Positions 14,920 to 23,535 of a stretch of DNA of 64,000 nucleotides are shown here, piece after piece. Made by a program: the position numbers and the translations under genes. The DNA is from Lewinella sp. W8 (GTDB lineage Bacteria > Bacteroidota > Bacteroidia > Chitinophagales > Saprospiraceae). Location of the stretch: the NCBI RefSeq assembly GCF_004375085.3, contig NZ_SNAQ03000027.1:1-64000 (forward strand), read 5' to 3'. Numbering within the stretch: position 1 is the first letter of the stretch; the number at the start of each line of letters is the position of its first letter. The notes under the pieces are model-generated. The model had not been told where the DNA came from, made no database searches, and saw nothing but the letters and a program-made list of their open reading frames with translations.

Positions 14920-15035
14920 GGGCGCAAGATACGCAGACGGGGAGGATACGCCCTATTGCGAAATTGCGGCTGGGGTAGGTCAAAAACAAGAATTGTTTTA
15001 AATTATTTTAATTCGTGAATTTATACAATATTTTG

Positions 15036-17116: not shown

Positions 17117-17148
17117 TTGTCTAATTCACCGCTTCGTTATTAAATTTG
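17117..17148 (+). promoter_or_regulatory. promoter of tRNA-Phe and probably the his operon
   Basis: TTG at 17117-17119 and TAAATTTG at 17141-17148 are 21 bases apart, matching the Bacteroidota housekeeping promoter exactly. The start site would fall near 17155, about 30 bases before tRNA-Phe. Only 13 bases separate the tRNA from the his leader, so I see no room for another promoter outside the tRNA gene. Confidence 0.6.
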
Positions 17149-17183
17149 CGTCGCTTTAGCGGGAACGCCTGCTAATAAATTAA

Positions 17184-17256
17184 GGTGCGGTAGCTCAGTT
17201 GGTAGAGCAATGGACTGAAAATCCATGTGTCGGCGGTTCGATTCCGCCCCACACCA
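17184..17256 (+). tRNA. tRNA-Phe (anticodon GAA)
   Basis: This is a 73-base cloverleaf. The acceptor strands are GGTGCGG and CCACACC, the D arm is GCTC-agttggta-GAGC, the anticodon arm is ATGGA-ctGAAaa-TCCAT and the T arm is GGCGG-ttcgatt-CCGCC; the discriminator is A. CCA is not encoded exactly (ACCCA follows). One acceptor pair (position 5 C with position 68 A) is mismatched, which is unusual. The gene sits directly in front of the his leader. Confidence 0.93.
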
Positions 17257-17269
17257 CCCAAGGAAAACC

Positions 17270-17329
17270 ATGACCAACTTCCTCCATCATCACCATGCTG
17301 CTATGTCTTGCCCCGTCGGCGAGCGGTAG
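17270..17329 (+). CDS. hisL: his operon leader peptide
   Basis: This is a 19-codon ORF, MTNFLHHHHAAMSCPVGER, with four consecutive His codons (CAT CAT CAC CAT, 17285-17296). It lies 13 bases after tRNA-Phe and 112 bases before hisG. Downstream are an intrinsic terminator (17369-17401) and a segment that can compete with it, so the layout is classical translational attenuation: ribosomes stalled at His codons leave 17326-17332 free to disrupt the terminator, while ribosomes finishing at the TAG (17327-17329) cover it. It is too short for routine gene callers. Confidence 0.85.
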   Translation: MTNFLHHHHAAMSCPVGER

Positions 17330-17401
17330 TTCTGGTGGAAGAACCTGGTTTCCCAAAAGCTATCAAAAGGTCCGTCGGAGCTACTCCGTCGGGCCTTTTT
17401 T
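17326..17401 (+). promoter_or_regulatory. his attenuator (antiterminator and terminator)
   Basis: Terminator: GGTCCGTCGGAG (17369-17380), loop CTA, CTCCGTCGGGCC (17384-17395), then six T; eleven of twelve positions pair (one G-U, one T-T mismatch). Competing pairing: GTAGTTC (17326-17332) with GAGCTAC (17378-17384), which consumes the top of the terminator stem. The 5' antiterminator strand overlaps the hisL stop codon, so leader translation decides the outcome. Confidence 0.8.
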
Positions 17402-17441
17402 GTTTCTACCCCCTTCGTATCGAAAACCAAATAACCAAGAA

Positions 17442-18305
17442 ATGTCGACCCCCCGTCTTCGCATTGCCGTGCAAAAATCCGGCCGCCTGTTGCAGGATTC
17501 CATTCAGTTGCTGAAAGAGTGTGGCATCAGAATCGACAACGGCCGTGATCAGCTCAAAGCTCCGGCCCGTAATTTTCCGGCGGAAATTCTGTACCTCCGC
17601 AACAGTGACATTCCGCAGTACATCCAGGATGGCGTAGCGGATATTGGCATCATTGGAGAAAACACTCTCGTTGAGAAAGAGAAAGAAGGGGAGGTCGTAC
17701 AGCATCTTGGTTTTTCGAAGTGCCGCCTGAGCCTGGCTACGCCCCGCGGCACCGTCTACGCGGGGCCGCAGGACCTCAACGGAAAGCGGATCGCCACCAG
17801 CTACCCCAACAGCCTGCGGGCCTACCTGAAGGCGCAAGACATTGATGCGGAGATTCACGAAATTTCCGGATCGGTGGAGATCGCCCCGAACATCGGCCTG
17901 GCCGATGCCATCTGTGACCTGGTTTCCACGGGCTCCACGCTCTTCAAAAATGGTCTGGAGGAACGGGACATCATCCTGAAGTCCGAGGCCGTCATTGCGG
18001 CCAGCCCCAAGATTGACGCTACCCGCCGGGAAATCCTGGATCGGCTGCTCTTCCGGATTCGTTCCGTGCTGGCGGCCCGCAACCAGAAATATTTATTGAT
18101 GAACGTGCCAAACCAGAAGGTGGAAACGATCATTAAGATGCTGCCGGGGATGCGTTCGCCTACGGTACTGCCGCTGGCCGAAGCGGGCTGGAGCAGCGTA
18201 CACACGGTGATCGCCGAGGACAGCTTCTGGGACATCATCGATCAACTCCGCGAAGCCGGAGCCGAAGGCATCCTCATCGTTCCCATCGACAAAATGATTG
18301 TCTAA
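17442..18305 (+). CDS. hisG: ATP phosphoribosyltransferase, long form
   Basis: This enzyme catalyses the first step of histidine synthesis: ATP plus PRPP to phosphoribosyl-ATP. The start is MSTPRLRIAVQKSGRL (17442); the longer frame reads through the attenuator. The 287-residue length, with a C-terminal ACT-like regulatory domain (from about residue 215, MNVPNQKVETIIKMLPGMRSPTVLPL), marks the long HisG type that needs no HisZ and is feedback-inhibited by histidine. PRPP-binding ICDLVSTGSTL is present. hisD follows after six bases. Control is expected at both transcription (attenuator) and enzyme level. Confidence 0.95.
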   Translation: MSTPRLRIAVQKSGRLLQDSIQLLKECGIRIDNGRDQLKAPARNFPAEILYLRNSDIPQYIQDGVADIGIIGENTLVEKEKEGEVVQHLGFSKCRLSLATPRGTVYAGPQDLNGKRIATSYPNSLRAYLKAQDIDAEIHEISGSVEIAPNIGLADAICDLVSTGSTLFKNGLEERDIILKSEAVIAASPKIDATRREILDRLLFRIRSVLAARNQKYLLMNVPNQKVETIIKMLPGMRSPTVLPLAEAGWSSVHTVIAEDSFWDIIDQLREAGAEGILIVPIDKMIV

Positions 18306-18311
18306 TCCAGA

Positions 18312-19610
18312 ATGAGTAGCATGCGTATTTACGATAACCCACCGCGCGCCGACTGGCCGGAGCTGCTGAAGCGCCCCGCCAAGGATCTCTCCAACCTACA
18401 GAAACGAGTGGGGGAAATCATGGCCGCCGTAAAGCAGCGGGGTGACGCGGCCCTGCGGGAGTTCACCGCGCGCTTTGACGGGGTCGAACTCGACCAGTTG
18501 GCCGTTCCGGCCGCGGCCATCAAGGCTGCCGGCGATAAGCTGAGTCCGGAGTTGCGGCGGGCTATCCTCACCGCCCGACAAAACATCGAGACTTTTCACC
18601 GGAGTCAGGTCACTACGGCCGAGGTGGTGGAGACCATGCCCGGGGTCCGCTGCTGGCGGGAGAGCCGGGGCATCGACCGGGTGGGTCTGTACATTCCTGG
18701 GGGGACGGCCCCCCTGTTCAGTACGGTGCTGATGCTGGCCGTCCCGGCCAACATCGCCGGTTGTGAAGAAATCGTGCTGTGTTCTCCGCCCGATAAGTCG
18801 GGAGAAATTCATCCGGCCATCCTCTTTGCGGCGGACGCCTGTGGGGTGACCAAAATTTTCCGGGTCGGTGGGTCGCAGGCCATTGCGGCCCTGGCCTACG
18901 GCACGGAGAGCGTGCCGGCGGTGTACAAGATCTTCGGTCCCGGTAACGCCTACGTTACCGTAGCCAAACAACTGGCGATGCTGGACGGGCTGGCGATTGA
19001 CATGCCGGCCGGTCCGAGCGAAGTACTGGTTTGCGCGGACGCAGGTGCCGAGGCCGCCCACGTAGCCGCGGATTTGCTGAGTCAGGCCGAGCACGGCCAC
19101 GATAGCCAGGTTGTGCTGGTCGTAGATAATCAGGAGCAGGCAGAAACGATCCGGGAGGAAGTGCAGCGGCAACTGGCGGATCTTCCCCGCCGGGAGTTGG
19201 CCGAACAAAGCATTGCCAACAGCCTGACGGTGGTGTTCTCCAATCCACAGGATCGTGTGGACTACGTCAATGCCTACGCTCCGGAACACCTTATCCTGAG
19301 CATGCAGGAGGCACGGGCGTTCAGTAAGCAGATTCGTAACGCCGGTTCCATCTTTTTGGGATACCACACCCCGGAGAGTGTGGGCGACTACGCCAGCGGC
19401 ACCAACCATACCCTGCCCACCTACGGATACGCCCGCAACTACAGCGGTGTGAGCCTGGACAGCTTCGTGAAGAAAATCACCTTTCAGGAGCTTACGGCCG
19501 ACGGACTGCGTACCCTGGGGCCCACCGTGGAGGTGATGGCTGCCGCCGAAGAACTTGATGCCCACAAGAACGCCGTCAGCCTCCGACTGGCGAGCCTGAA
19601 AGCCCAATAA
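18312..19610 (+). CDS. hisD: histidinol dehydrogenase
   Basis: This 432-residue Zn- and NAD-dependent enzyme performs the last two oxidations from histidinol to histidine. Recognisable signatures are IYIPGGTAPLFSTVLML-like (GLYIPGGTAPLFSTV), FGPGNAYVTVAKQLA, IDMPAGPSEVLV, DLLSQAEHGHDSQ (catalytic His and Zn ligands) and YAPEHLIL. The C-terminus GTNHTLPTYGYARNYSGVSLDSF contains the conserved Zn-binding His. It lies six bases after hisG and 53 before hisC. An ATG nine bases downstream (MRIYDN) is an alternative start. Confidence 0.96.
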   Translation: MSSMRIYDNPPRADWPELLKRPAKDLSNLQKRVGEIMAAVKQRGDAALREFTARFDGVELDQLAVPAAAIKAAGDKLSPELRRAILTARQNIETFHRSQVTTAEVVETMPGVRCWRESRGIDRVGLYIPGGTAPLFSTVLMLAVPANIAGCEEIVLCSPPDKSGEIHPAILFAADACGVTKIFRVGGSQAIAALAYGTESVPAVYKIFGPGNAYVTVAKQLAMLDGLAIDMPAGPSEVLVCADAGAEAAHVAADLLSQAEHGHDSQVVLVVDNQEQAETIREEVQRQLADLPRRELAEQSIANSLTVVFSNPQDRVDYVNAYAPEHLILSMQEARAFSKQIRNAGSIFLGYHTPESVGDYASGTNHTLPTYGYARNYSGVSLDSFVKKITFQELTADGLRTLGPTVEVMAAAEELDAHKNAVSLRLASLKAQ

Positions 19611-19663: not shown

Positions 19664-20734
19664 ATGACCGCCACCGAAACCATTTCCTGGACGCCGGAAA
19701 AAATCCGCGAACTCGTCCGACCGAATATCCTGACGCTGAAGCCCTACTCCAGTGCCCGGAGTGAGTTCAAGGGCGTTGCCGAGGTGCTGCTCGACGCCAA
19801 CGAAAGTCCCTTCGATAATGGCGTCAACCGCTACCCGGACCCACTGGCCACCGCCGTGCGCCAGGCCATCGGTGGTTTGCGCAACGTCGATCCGGAGCGC
19901 ATCATGCTCGGCAACGGCTCCGATGAGTTGGTCGACTACGTGACGCGTATTTTCTGTCACCCCGGACGCGACGCGGTGCTGGCGCTGCCCCCAACCTTCG
20001 GGATGTACAAGGTAGCGGCGGGCATCAATGACGTGGAGTTCCGGGCGGTCAACCTGCTCCCCGATTTCACCATTCCGGTAGACCAACTCAAAGGGGCCTT
20101 TGACGATAAGACGCGGATCCTCTGGCTCTGCAGTCCCAACAACCCCAGCGGTAACGCGATGGACCCGGCCGTGATGGAGGACCTGATCCGGACCTTCCCC
20201 GGCATTGTGGTGCTCGACGAGGCCTACATCGACTTCACCCCGGAGGCCAGCTTCTTGCCTCGCCTCGATGAATTCCCGAACCTGATCATTACCCAAACCA
20301 TGTCGAAGGGTTGGGGTATGGCCGGCGCCCGCGTGGGGATGGCCTTTGCCTCCGAGTTCATCATCACGATGATGAAGGCCATCAAGCCGCCCTACAACGT
20401 GAACGTTATCAGTCAGGAGCGCGCGCTGGCGGCGCTGCAACGCCCCGAGGTGATGCAGGCCAAAGTCAATACCCTGATCGGGGAGCGAAAGCGGCTGGCC
20501 CGGGAGCTGGACAGCTTGGCCTGTGTGGAGTACATCTTCCCGTCGGTGACCAACTTCCTGCTGGTACGCTTTCAGGACAGTGCGGCCGTGTACCAGTTTT
20601 TGCTGGACCGTGGCATTGTGGTCCGCAATCAAAGTTACCAGCCCAACGCCGAGAACTGTCTGCGGATCACGGCCGGACTTCCCGAGGAGAACGACCGTTT
20701 GCTGGCGGCGCTGCGGGAATTTGATGCTCAATAA
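19664..20734 (+). CDS. hisC: histidinol-phosphate aminotransferase
   Basis: This 356-residue PLP enzyme (fold type I) converts imidazole-acetol phosphate plus glutamate to histidinol phosphate. The PLP-contact segments are [32 protein letters not shown] and [14 protein letters not shown], in which the Lys forms the Schiff base, followed by the conserved Arg of ARVG. The N-terminal [14 protein letters not shown] is HisC-specific (LKPYxxAR). The 53-base gap before it contains ATTGCACCCGCGA, a motif found before other starts, so an internal promoter is possible. Confidence 0.95.
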
Positions 20735-20760: not shown

Positions 20761-21897
20761 GTGCAAAAAGTCCTTTTCCTAGACCGTGACGGTACCCTCA
20801 TCCTGGAGCCCGAAGACTACCAGGTCGATCACATCGACAAGCTGAACTTTTATCCCGGTGTTTTCCGGTGGTTGGGGCGCATCGTGCGGGAGCTGGACTA
20901 CCAGCTCGTCATGGTGACCAACCAGGATGGACTTGGCACGGACAGCTACCCCGAAGAGAATTTCTGGCCCACGCACGAAGCCATGCGGCGTGCGCTGGCG
21001 GCCGAGGGCATCACCTTCGCCGAAGAAATTATTGACCGCACCTTCGCGGCCGACAATCAGCCCACCCGCAAGCCCGGCACGGCCCTGCTCACCCATTACC
21101 TGGAGGGGGCGTACGATCTGGCGAACAGTTACGTCGTCGGTGATCGATTGACGGACATGCAACTGGCCAAAAACCTGGGTGGTAAGGGCATCTGGATTGC
21201 GAACGATCCGGAGTTGGGTAACGAGGAACTGGACGCTGACCAACTGGCGAGTCTGGACGATACCATTGCGCTGCGCACGACCGACTGGGAGGAAATCTAC
21301 CGCTTACTGCGGCTGGAAAACCGTACGGCCAGCATCCGTCGGACGACCAAGGAAACGGACATCCAGATTGAACTGGATCTGGACGGCACGGGCAAGACCC
21401 GAATGGATACCGGCCTGGGGTTCTTCGACCATATGCTGGATCAACTCGGCCGCCATTCCGGTTGTGACCTGAGCGTGAAGGTGGCCGGTGACCTCCACAT
21501 TGACGAGCATCATACCATTGAGGACACGGCCATCGCCCTGGGCGAAGCCTTCGGCGCGGCCCTGGGGAATAAGATGGGCATTGAGCGGTACGGTTTCCAC
21601 CTGGTGATGGATGAGGCCCTCGTACAGGTCGGCCTTGACTTCGGCGGACGCCCCTGGCTGGTCTGGGAAGCAGCCTACAAACGCGAAAAGATCGGGGATA
21701 TGCCCACCGAGATGTTCCACCACTTCTTCAAGTCGTTTAGCGACGGCGCGAAATGCAACCTGAACATCAAGGCCGAAGGGCAGAACGAACACCACATGAT
21801 CGAGGCGACCTTCAAGGCGCTGGCCAAGGCCATCAAGATGGCCAAGCGCCGTGACGTGGACAATATGCGACTGCCCTCCACCAAGGGAATGCTCTAA
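20761..21897 (+). CDS. hisB: bifunctional histidinol-phosphatase/imidazoleglycerol-phosphate dehydratase
   Basis: This is a 378-residue fusion. Residues 1-165 are a HAD phosphatase ([10 protein letters not shown] gives the catalytic Asp pair; [16 protein letters not shown] is motif IV), removing phosphate from histidinol phosphate. Residues 185-378 are IGP dehydratase with the Mn-binding motifs [20 protein letters not shown] and [11 protein letters not shown]. The fusion order matches E. coli and other Bacteroidota. Translation begins at a GTG (20761), since [11 protein letters not shown] is the natural N-terminus and no in-frame ATG precedes it. It lies 26 bases after hisC and 20 before hisH. 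Confidence 0.96.
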
Positions 21898-21917: not shown

Positions 21918-22508
21918 ATGGTAGCCGTAATTGACTACAATGCCGGTAATATTCGATCCGTGCTCTACGCCCTGGAGCGCATCGGGGTGGAACACGTGCT
22001 GACGAGTGACCACGACGTGATCCGCGCCGCGGATAAGGTGATTTTTCCGGGGGTGGGCGCCGCGGCGTCCACGATGGCTCACCTGAACGAGACGGGCCTG
22101 AGTGACCTGATCCGTTCCCTGACGCAACCCGTCTTCGGGATTTGCGTGGGGATGCAGCTGCTCTGTAGCCACAGTGAGGAAGGGGACGTGCCCTGCATCG
22201 GGGTGTTTCCGGAGCGGGTCCGGAAGTTTGTACCGACCGATGGCGAGAAGGTACCCCACATGGGGTGGAACGACGTCAGCCTGACCGAAAAGAACGACTG
22301 GGTGAGTGATTCCGTGAACGGAACGTACTGCTACTACGTGCACAGTTACTACGTGGAAGCCGGCCCCGATACGGTAGCCACGACGGCGTACTGCGGCAAA
22401 ACCTTCGCCGCCATGATGCAGAAGGACAACTTCTACGCCGCGCAGTTTCACCCAGAGAAATCCGCTGCGGCGGGGGAGCAGATCTTGCGGGATTTTCTGG
22501 CGTTGTAG
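21918..22508 (+). CDS. hisH: imidazole glycerol phosphate synthase, glutaminase subunit
   Basis: This 196-residue class I glutamine amidotransferase supplies ammonia to HisF. The nucleophile Cys lies in FGICVGMQLLC and the His/Glu pair in AAQFHPEKS; the N-terminal VAVIDYNAGNIRSV and the PHMGWNDV strand are HisH-specific. HisH works only as a complex with HisF, yet hisF is not downstream. The operon ends here at a non-coding repeat and a convergent gene, so the remaining his genes must be elsewhere. Confidence 0.95.
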   Translation: MVAVIDYNAGNIRSVLYALERIGVEHVLTSDHDVIRAADKVIFPGVGAAASTMAHLNETGLSDLIRSLTQPVFGICVGMQLLCSHSEEGDVPCIGVFPERVRKFVPTDGEKVPHMGWNDVSLTEKNDWVSDSVNGTYCYYVHSYYVEAGPDTVATTAYCGKTFAAMMQKDNFYAAQFHPEKSAAAGEQILRDFLAL

Positions 22509-22672: not shown

Positions 22673-23500
22673 TCACCTCACCGCCTCGTAGCCCACCATA
22701 ATTTCCTTGCGTTCCGGACCCCAGCGGTAGCCGCCGAGGGCGCCGTTTTGGCGCAGCACCCGATGGCAGGGAATCAAGAAGGCGATAGGGTTTTTCCCGA
22801 TGGCCGTGCCTACGGCACGGACGGCAGCGGGCTTCCCAACCTGGGTCGCAATGTCTCCGTAGGAGCGAAGGTGCCCGGAAGGGATCTGCAGCAGCGCCCG
22901 CCAGACACTCAGTTGGAAGGGCGTTCCCCTTAGGTCCAGGACCAGTGGTTTATCGGGTAGCTGCCAATCCTTAAAGAATCGGCCGACGGCGCGCAGGTGC
23001 ACACTATCTCCCCGGTGCAATCGTGCCTCGGGGAATTCCCTACGGAGCTCCTGCTCCGGGTTAGCGTTCCTTTCCAAAAAAGAAAGAAAACAGATCCCCA
23101 GTTCGGTGGCCGCCGCCAGCGCCACGCCAAACGGGGTAGTAATTTCCCGGTAGGTGATGTCGACGCCCGCGCCCCGGTCGCGCCACGCTCCGGGTGAGCA
23201 CCCCTGCAGCTGCACGAACAGATCGTGCAGCCGGCCGTTGCCGGATAGCCCCGCAGCGTGGGCGGCCTCCAGGGTGGAGACGCCGGCCCGCAGGCCGGCC
23301 TTGGCGTGCTCCAGCGTCAGGTGTTGCAAAAACCGCTTGGGACTCACCCCCGCCCATTCCCGAAACAGGCGCTGGAAGTGATACTTGCTCAGGTGCACGT
23401 GGGCCGCTACGTCCTCCAGACTGGGCTGCTCCTGCGCGTGTTCCCGCAGGTAGCGGATGGCCGCCGCCACCCGCTCGTAATGGTGTTCGGTTGGTGTCAT
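22673..23500 (-). CDS. Ada-like regulator: AraC HTH plus O6-alkylguanine-DNA methyltransferase
   Basis: This is a 275-residue protein read from MTPTEHHYERVAAAIRYL (23500). Residues 8-105 form two AraC-type helix-turn-helices (SLEDVAAHVHLSKYHFQRLF). Residues 185-275 are the alkyltransferase, with the acceptor Cys in IPCHRV (C245) and the RAVGTAIGKNP helix that flips the base. The N-terminal metal-binding methyl-phosphotriester domain of E. coli Ada (four Cys) is absent, so activation, if any, would have to come from the C245 reaction or simple DNA binding. It probably repairs O6-methylguanine and may control its own gene. Confidence 0.9.
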   Translation of the reverse strand: MTPTEHHYERVAAAIRYLREHAQEQPSLEDVAAHVHLSKYHFQRLFREWAGVSPKRFLQHLTLEHAKAGLRAGVSTLEAAHAAGLSGNGRLHDLFVQLQGCSPGAWRDRGAGVDITYREITTPFGVALAAATELGICFLSFLERNANPEQELRREFPEARLHRGDSVHLRAVGRFFKDWQLPDKPLVLDLRGTPFQLSVWRALLQIPSGHLRSYGDIATQVGKPAAVRAVGTAIGKNPIAFLIPCHRVLRQNGALGGYRWGPERKEIMVGYEAVR

Positions 23501-23504
23501 GGTC

Positions 23505-23535
23505 CAAAAGTAGGGGAGGTGCGGAGGCAGCACAA
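23505..23535 (-). promoter_or_regulatory. promoter of the Ada-like gene
   Basis: On the minus strand TACTTTTG (23512-23505) and TTG (23535-23533) are separated by 20 bases. The predicted start of transcription coincides with the ATG at 23500, so the mRNA may be leaderless. Confidence 0.5.

Follow-up and report, generated by a model that had tools for sequence, protein, structure and literature searches.

Among the closest described counterparts of the locus reported here is the enterobacterial hisL leader, in which a short open reading frame with tandem His codons (more of them than in our leader) is followed by alternative RNA pairings and by a terminator that precedes hisG. Our locus has such a reading frame and such a terminator, and alternative pairings are predicted for it; its leader differs in lying behind a tRNA gene and in seeming to have no promoter of its own. 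In 2004, Vitreschak and colleagues reportedly counted the Bacteroidetes/Chlorobi among the groups with candidate attenuators; to our knowledge, they did not describe any such transcript that begins with a tRNA gene. Transcripts that join tRNAs to protein-coding genes and are then parted by RNA processing are familiar from E. coli (thrT-tufB and metY-rimP-nusA), and we know of no case among them in which the mRNA part acts both as an amino-acid attenuator and as the tRNA's terminator. A further parallel is the tRNA punctuation of mitochondria, where tRNAs are excised and the mRNAs thereby released have virtually no 5' leader. Near-leaderless 5' ends are likewise predicted for seven of the loci described below, although the bacterial case involves a single locus, and the mRNA released would be the reading frame of a regulatory peptide.

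For Flavobacterium psychrophilum, strong signs have been presented that amino-acid operons are preceded by leader-peptide attenuators, and the available text of that study describes no tRNA gene at the start of these transcripts (PMC9723704). Histidine attenuators with runs of three to five His codons and a terminator/antiterminator arrangement have been predicted in another phylum, the Firmicutes, again with no tRNA linkage in the available text (PMC9413887). The attenuator itself is thus of a known kind, and his attenuators outside Proteobacteria had, according to the same source, already been predicted. In the literature that we consulted on attenuators of this phylum, on tRNA linkage and on leaderless mRNAs made by tRNA processing, which included few subscription papers, we recognised no report of a his attenuator fused to a tRNA-Phe gene.

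We analysed a stretch of 64,000 nucleotides (the window) from Lewinella sp. W8, a member of the Saprospiraceae (the family, below). Its histidine operon is encoded on the forward strand, as are all features given below unless otherwise stated, and consists of hisG as the first structural gene (17442 to 18305; TIGR00070, 187.6 bits), hisD (18312 to 19610; TIGR00069), hisC (19664 to 20734; TIGR01141), a bifunctional hisB (20761 to 21897; NF003937) and hisH (21918 to 22508; TIGR01855). A gene on the reverse strand (22673 to 23533) matches models of Ada-type transcriptional regulators/methylguanine-DNA methyltransferases. hisA is located apart from hisGDCBH (L337, G000:C2:26724-27416), and no His-rich leader was found in the 1.6 kb scanned upstream of it.

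A first-pass annotation of this DNA had described a leader reading frame with four tandem His codons, a downstream terminator with six T residues and a GTAGTTC/GAGCTAC pairing that overlaps the leader stop codon, and all three elements are present. The leader, MTNFLHHHHAAMSCPVGER, occupies positions 17270 to 17329, with the four His control codons at 17285 to 17296 and the stop codon TAG at 17327 to 17329. The intrinsic terminator (17365 to 17401) has a stem formed by 17365 to 17380 and 17384 to 17399 and a T run at 17396 to 17401, with a calculated energy of -23.3 kcal/mol. A simple scan of the window for promoters (of the E. coli type) and terminators gave no match and overlooked this terminator, in our judgement because of a mismatch within its stem; the scan was replaced by a search for the Bacteroidota promoter box and by a fold-based terminator search. 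GTAGTTC (17326 to 17332) and GAGCTAC (17378 to 17384) turn out to belong to a longer, uninterrupted pairing of 14 bp including G-U pairs, between 17326 to 17339 and 17371 to 17384. We designate as region 1 positions 17279 to 17289, which include His codons; as region 2 positions 17326 to 17343, which overlap the stop codon; and as region 3 positions 17371 to 17384, which comprise the 5' arm and loop of the terminator and are the partner of region 2 in the putative antiterminator. The minimum-free-energy fold of the 151-nucleotide leader (17257 to 17407) contains a region 1:2 hairpin (17279 to 17289 with 17333 to 17343) together with the terminator, and at -53.8 kcal/mol it is far more stable than shuffled sequences (-37.6 +/- 3.3; z -4.95).

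The Rfam model of hisL (His_leader, RF00514) aligns end to end in the window at 26.2 bits, far under its cut-off of 49 bits; none of 20 relatives reaches this cut-off, and no Rfam model recognises the leaders at its cut-off there. A T-box leader was also sought, and none is among the Rfam matches with E<=1 between positions 15000 and 24000. By itself, a run of four His codons is no rarity, since the pattern CAYCAYCAYCAY is found 135 times in the 6.2-Mb genome, as compared with 35 times for the reversed pattern. What argues for an attenuator is that its leader and terminator are strongly conserved.

We sampled 199 genomes of the family evenly from a larger group, and a HisG was identified in 122 of them. 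Together with 59 named loci and fetched stretches, these genomes gave 169 upstream regions, of which 165 were of usable length, 155 were unique, and 141 remained after removal of 14 known duplicates (four genomes are still represented twice, as L130/L082, L131/L083, L135/L085 and L137/L084). A leader was scored as a reading frame of 5 to 45 codons that starts with ATG within 600 nucleotides and has at least three His among seven codons. Conservation in relatives had been set beforehand as one test of the attenuator, and the attenuator withstood it: a His-rich leader is present in 123 of the 141 regions (119 of 137 without the four doubled genomes), and an intrinsic terminator lies between leader stop and hisG in 121 of these 123 (117 of 119). 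The 121 terminators, a few of which are misplaced, have a median energy of -20.8 kcal/mol, with 117 at -14 kcal/mol or better, and one was found in each of the 17 loci that make up the clade of the window. Outside the family, 47 of 60 hisG upstream regions from other families of the order and class have a His-rich leader. In the 18 family loci with no leader by the rule, the contig may be too short, the leader may be longer or start with another codon than ATG, or it may truly be missing; L077 and L078, for example, are missed because their frame starts with TTG or is longer than 45 codons. Ribosome-mediated attenuation of the his operon, a known kind of regulation, is thus very likely.

The first-pass annotation had proposed that His-tRNA supply controls hisGDCBH through ribosome stalling. 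Conservation supports that proposal, but the proposal was incomplete, because a tRNA-Phe gene directly upstream had been overlooked. This tRNA, with anticodon GAA, occupies positions 17184 to 17256, so that position 73 of the tRNA is A17256 (Rfam RF00005, 72.1 bits; ARAGORN gives 17184 to 17258). Its CCA end is not encoded (CCC A follows), and 13 nucleotides separate position 73 from the ATG of the leader. A tRNA-Phe (GAA) gene is situated on the same strand upstream of hisG in 55 unique loci of the family; no tRNA occurs within 900 nucleotides of hisG in the 60 loci from other families. (The missing tRNA is uninformative in L014 and L017, for which just 215 and 168 nucleotides of upstream sequence are available.) The gap that separates position 73 from the start codon of the leader measures 1 nucleotide in 7 loci, 12 to 27 nucleotides in 24 (21 of them at 12 to 18) and 45 to 226 nucleotides in 20, and the other 4 of the 55 linked loci have no leader by the rule. 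The 1-nucleotide loci belong to Neolewinella litorea, N. xylanilytica, N. aquimaris and N. marina and to Lewinella sp. IMCC34183, IMCC34191 and JB7. We refer to the 31 unique loci with gaps of 1 to 27 nucleotides as short-gap loci; they include close relatives and so do not amount to 31 independent events. CCA is encoded in 4 of the 55 linked tRNA-Phe genes, and L037 reads ...CACACCA C ATG.

The arm pattern of the window's tRNA-Phe has no second match in the genome. When up to three mismatches were allowed, a single match was likewise found in each of the 24 short-gap genomes searched, which correspond to 24 of the 31 short-gap loci and include just one of the seven 1-nucleotide loci. Across the family, 109 of 120 genomes have one match, three have two, and eight have none. 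In the genomes searched, tRNA-Phe thus seems to be encoded by the fused copy alone, with the qualification that a strongly diverged second copy would escape the pattern. ARAGORN reports a second tRNA with a GAA anticodon in the window's genome, on a Gly-like body, which is probably degenerate. On a HisG tree of 87 rows and 286 columns, in which 41 of 84 inner branches are well supported, a clade supported at 100/98 has 56 rows, 51 of them linked loci, and four further linked rows fall into a second, distant group. The 1-nucleotide state is confined to one Neolewinella/Lewinella clade of nine rows, seven with the 1-nucleotide gap and two without a leader. By the criterion of the tree program, the bootstrap had not quite converged, and the history of one gene may differ from that of the species; the linkage may reflect one old origin followed by losses or two origins.

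We propose that promoter, tRNA-Phe, His leader peptide, attenuator and hisGDCBH would form one transcription unit, a reading drawn from comparison of sequences, to which we assign a probability of roughly 0.78. The predicted promoter consists of a -7 box, TAAATTTG, at 17141 to 17148, which fits the Bacteroidota consensus TAnnTTTG, and a -33 TTG element at 17117 to 17119, 21 nucleotides before the box. The corresponding box of F. psychrophilum is described as lying at -12 to -5 relative to the mapped transcription start (PMC9723704), and this rule places the start in the window near 17153. All 31 short-gap loci have TAnnTTTG 25 to 66 nucleotides before the tRNA, as compared with 1.6 expected from shuffles and with 2 and 1 for two control motifs. 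A TTG is found 20 to 21 nucleotides before this box in 27 of the 31, and in most of the short-gap loci the box is followed by C-rich sequence that leads into CGCTT. The predicted RNA from 17153 to 17404 has a z of -3.84 and folds as a 5' hairpin, the tRNA arms, the region 1:2 hairpin and the terminator. The first of these, a short hairpin AGCGGGAACGCCUGCU at 17153 to 17183, lies in the predicted 5' extension of pre-tRNA-Phe, and near relatives have a similar GGGAACGCCC.

The strongest rival is that the his attenuator is of the usual type and has a separate promoter, concealed within the tRNA gene or close to it, such that the tRNA is a mere neighbour. We regard this as unlikely for the short-gap loci. 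Between the start of the tRNA and the leader ATG, TAnnTTTG was found in 0 of 31 short-gap loci, against 31 of 31 upstream of the tRNA, and gaps of 1 to 18 nucleotides scarcely provide space for a usual promoter. Farther downstream, the stretch from terminator to hisG lacks the box in all 121 terminator-bearing loci, and the stretch from leader ATG to terminator has it in 10 of the 121. A possible non-consensus promoter inside the tRNA gene would still fit this rival, as would the loci of other families, in which 47 of 60 have the leader and none has the tRNA. In contrast to the short-gap loci, where the box precedes the tRNA, 47 of 67 leaders with no linked tRNA have TAnnTTTG within 120 nucleotides upstream of the leader itself, and we count this difference in favour of the single transcription unit. 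In 15 of these 47, the predicted 5' UTR is 0 to 6 nucleotides long (five of the 15 at 0), and leaderless or very short 5' ends may be common for the leader-peptide mRNAs of the family.

Terminators behind the tRNA bear on the same rival. No intrinsic terminator was found between the tRNA and the leader stop codon in any of the 31 short-gap loci. Of 30 tRNA-Phe loci examined for comparison, seven are linked to hisG and four were set aside for want of sequence; in 17 of the other 19, a terminator follows within 120 nucleotides and starts about a dozen nucleotides or less past position 73. The long-gap loci (45 to 226 nucleotides) suit the rival better, since a terminator-like hairpin lies between tRNA and leader in 17 of the 20, and TAnnTTTG between them in 3 of the 20; linkage there is possibly mere neighbourhood. 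Nine loci with spacers of 45 to 64 nucleotides (L057, L059, L066, L042, L063, L080, L049, L048 and L045) have a strong hairpin behind the tRNA and then a short stretch to the ATG, with no exact TAnnTTTG box in these spacers; in several of the nine, the tRNA begins shortly past the stop of an open frame of 26 to 76 codons. Returning to the proposed transcription unit, the terminator before hisG is the first intrinsic one found downstream of tRNA-Phe in the window. Because the fused loci have no terminator between tRNA and leader, the attenuator would be the first intrinsic terminator of the tRNA, and it seems to serve as trailer and terminator of the tRNA-Phe gene.

A second rival interpretation would be that the hairpin is a plain terminator of tRNA-Phe, with constant low read-through feeding the his genes and with translation of the leader irrelevant. 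Three linked loci without a leader (L040, L041 and L050) fit this idea, in that each has, close behind the tRNA, a terminator resembling that of its relatives and has no TAnnTTTG before hisG. Separately, we note that these three and L157 share an arrangement of tRNA-Phe and then a terminator, with no His leader before hisG, which is possibly a natural loss of the control peptide. Constant read-through is nevertheless improbable, because 123 of 141 loci retain a His-rich leader although the sequences have drifted, and because the alternative pairings surpass shuffled sequences in many of 113 loci; a plain terminator would need neither the leaders nor the pairings.

We evaluated these pairings in 113 family loci, leaving out weak terminators and five named misplaced ones. 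The median energy of the region 2:3 pairing is -14.6 kcal/mol, versus -8.6 kcal/mol for shuffled sequences (mean z -2.0). At most 5 of 200 mononucleotide shuffles are as good in 46 of the 113 loci; with dinucleotide shuffles, at most 2 of 100 are as good in 49 of 113, and at most 50 of 100 in 104 of 113. The duplex reaches the leader stop codon in 68 of the 113 loci. Both strands vary between clades while pairing is kept, as in GGCAAATGGTGA/TTTACCATTTGCC versus CTCAGGCGAGGT/AACCCGTCTGAGT. When region 3 was swapped for that of other loci, a median of 12.5% of the foreign sequences paired as well (at most 5% in 28 loci, more than 50% in 8); this control is modest, weaker than the shuffles, and points in the same direction. 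The competing region 1:2 pairing, between His codons and region 2, is matched by at most 5 of 200 mononucleotide shuffles in 57 of 113 loci (mean z -2.3) and by at most 2 of 100 dinucleotide shuffles in 46 of 113.

The claim in the first-pass annotation that the region 2:3 pairing excludes the terminator is therefore backed by shuffles across the family, but not by the window or its nearest relatives. In the window, 31 of 200 mononucleotide and 83 of 500 dinucleotide shuffles pair as well as the antiterminator, and 26 of 200 and 66 of 500, respectively, pair as well as regions 1 and 2, so that neither pairing is significant alone. In the clade of the window, which comprises it and the 16 Neolewinella-type loci closest to it, region 2:3 is significant in 0 of 17 loci at 5 or fewer of 200 mononucleotide shuffles, and the best locus has 37 of 500 dinucleotide shuffles as good; region 1:2 is significant, by dinucleotide shuffles, in 2 of the 17 only (L035 and L068). 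This lack of significance fits a plain terminator, and it can also be related to the GC-rich leaders of the clade, which lead to strong chance pairing. For this clade, we infer control by leader translation from its leaders and terminators and from the family at large, and not from the clade's own pairings; the exact antiterminator given above for the window is likewise a prediction by extension from the family.

Control by a T-box or a binding protein in place of ribosome stalling, as some other bacteria are described to use for his genes (T-boxes or the repressor HisR; PMC9413887), is so improbable here, given that the Rfam matches with E<=1 between 15000 and 24000 include no T-box and that tandem His codons ahead of a terminator fit stalling, that we set it aside.

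Under the proposed single transcription unit, RNA polymerase would start about 30 nucleotides before tRNA-Phe and continue through the leader. With ample His-tRNA, a ribosome that reaches the leader stop codon would cover region 2, so that the 3:4 terminator forms and the tRNA-Phe transcript ends. With scarce His-tRNA, the ribosome would stall on the His codons, leaving region 2 free to pair with region 3, and in the absence of the terminator the his genes would be transcribed. If the leader were not translated, region 2 would pair with the His codons and the terminator would form. Co-transcription, stalling and read-through are in this sense predictions of the model, as is separation of tRNA and leader by 3' processing: cleavage by RNase Z after position 73 would part the tRNA from a leader mRNA whose 5' extension is very short. 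An RNase Z candidate in the window's genome is full length and scores 286 bits, just below the curated cut-off of 292.95. The predicted cut would leave 5'-C-AUG in seven Neolewinella/Lewinella genomes and an end 12 to 18 nucleotides before AUG in 21 other unique loci. At the 1-nucleotide loci, ribosomes seem to be sterically hindered from initiating on uncut RNA, because the acceptor stem would sit in their mRNA channel; there, cleavage after position 73 followed by leaderless initiation is expected.

These considerations raise the tentative idea, to which we give somewhat less than even odds, that maturation of the tRNA makes the his switch. The RNase Z cut would create the 5' end of the leader mRNA, which would be translated without a leader or nearly so, and the his genes could be turned on only from transcripts whose tRNA-Phe has been correctly processed. 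The attenuator would at the same time be the terminator of the tRNA, and the supply of tRNA and of his enzymes would be tied to one promoter.

Such an arrangement poses a physiological puzzle, in that the his genes would depend on a tRNA promoter, and tRNA promoters of other bacteria are often shut down in amino-acid starvation. If our reading is true, the terminator of a tRNA gene is an amino-acid-sensing attenuator, and one promoter would provide an essential stable RNA always and a biosynthetic operon on demand. The 1-nucleotide loci would then parallel, in bacteria, the tRNA punctuation of mitochondria, and they would allow a direct test of whether tRNA 3' processing can gate translation and attenuation.
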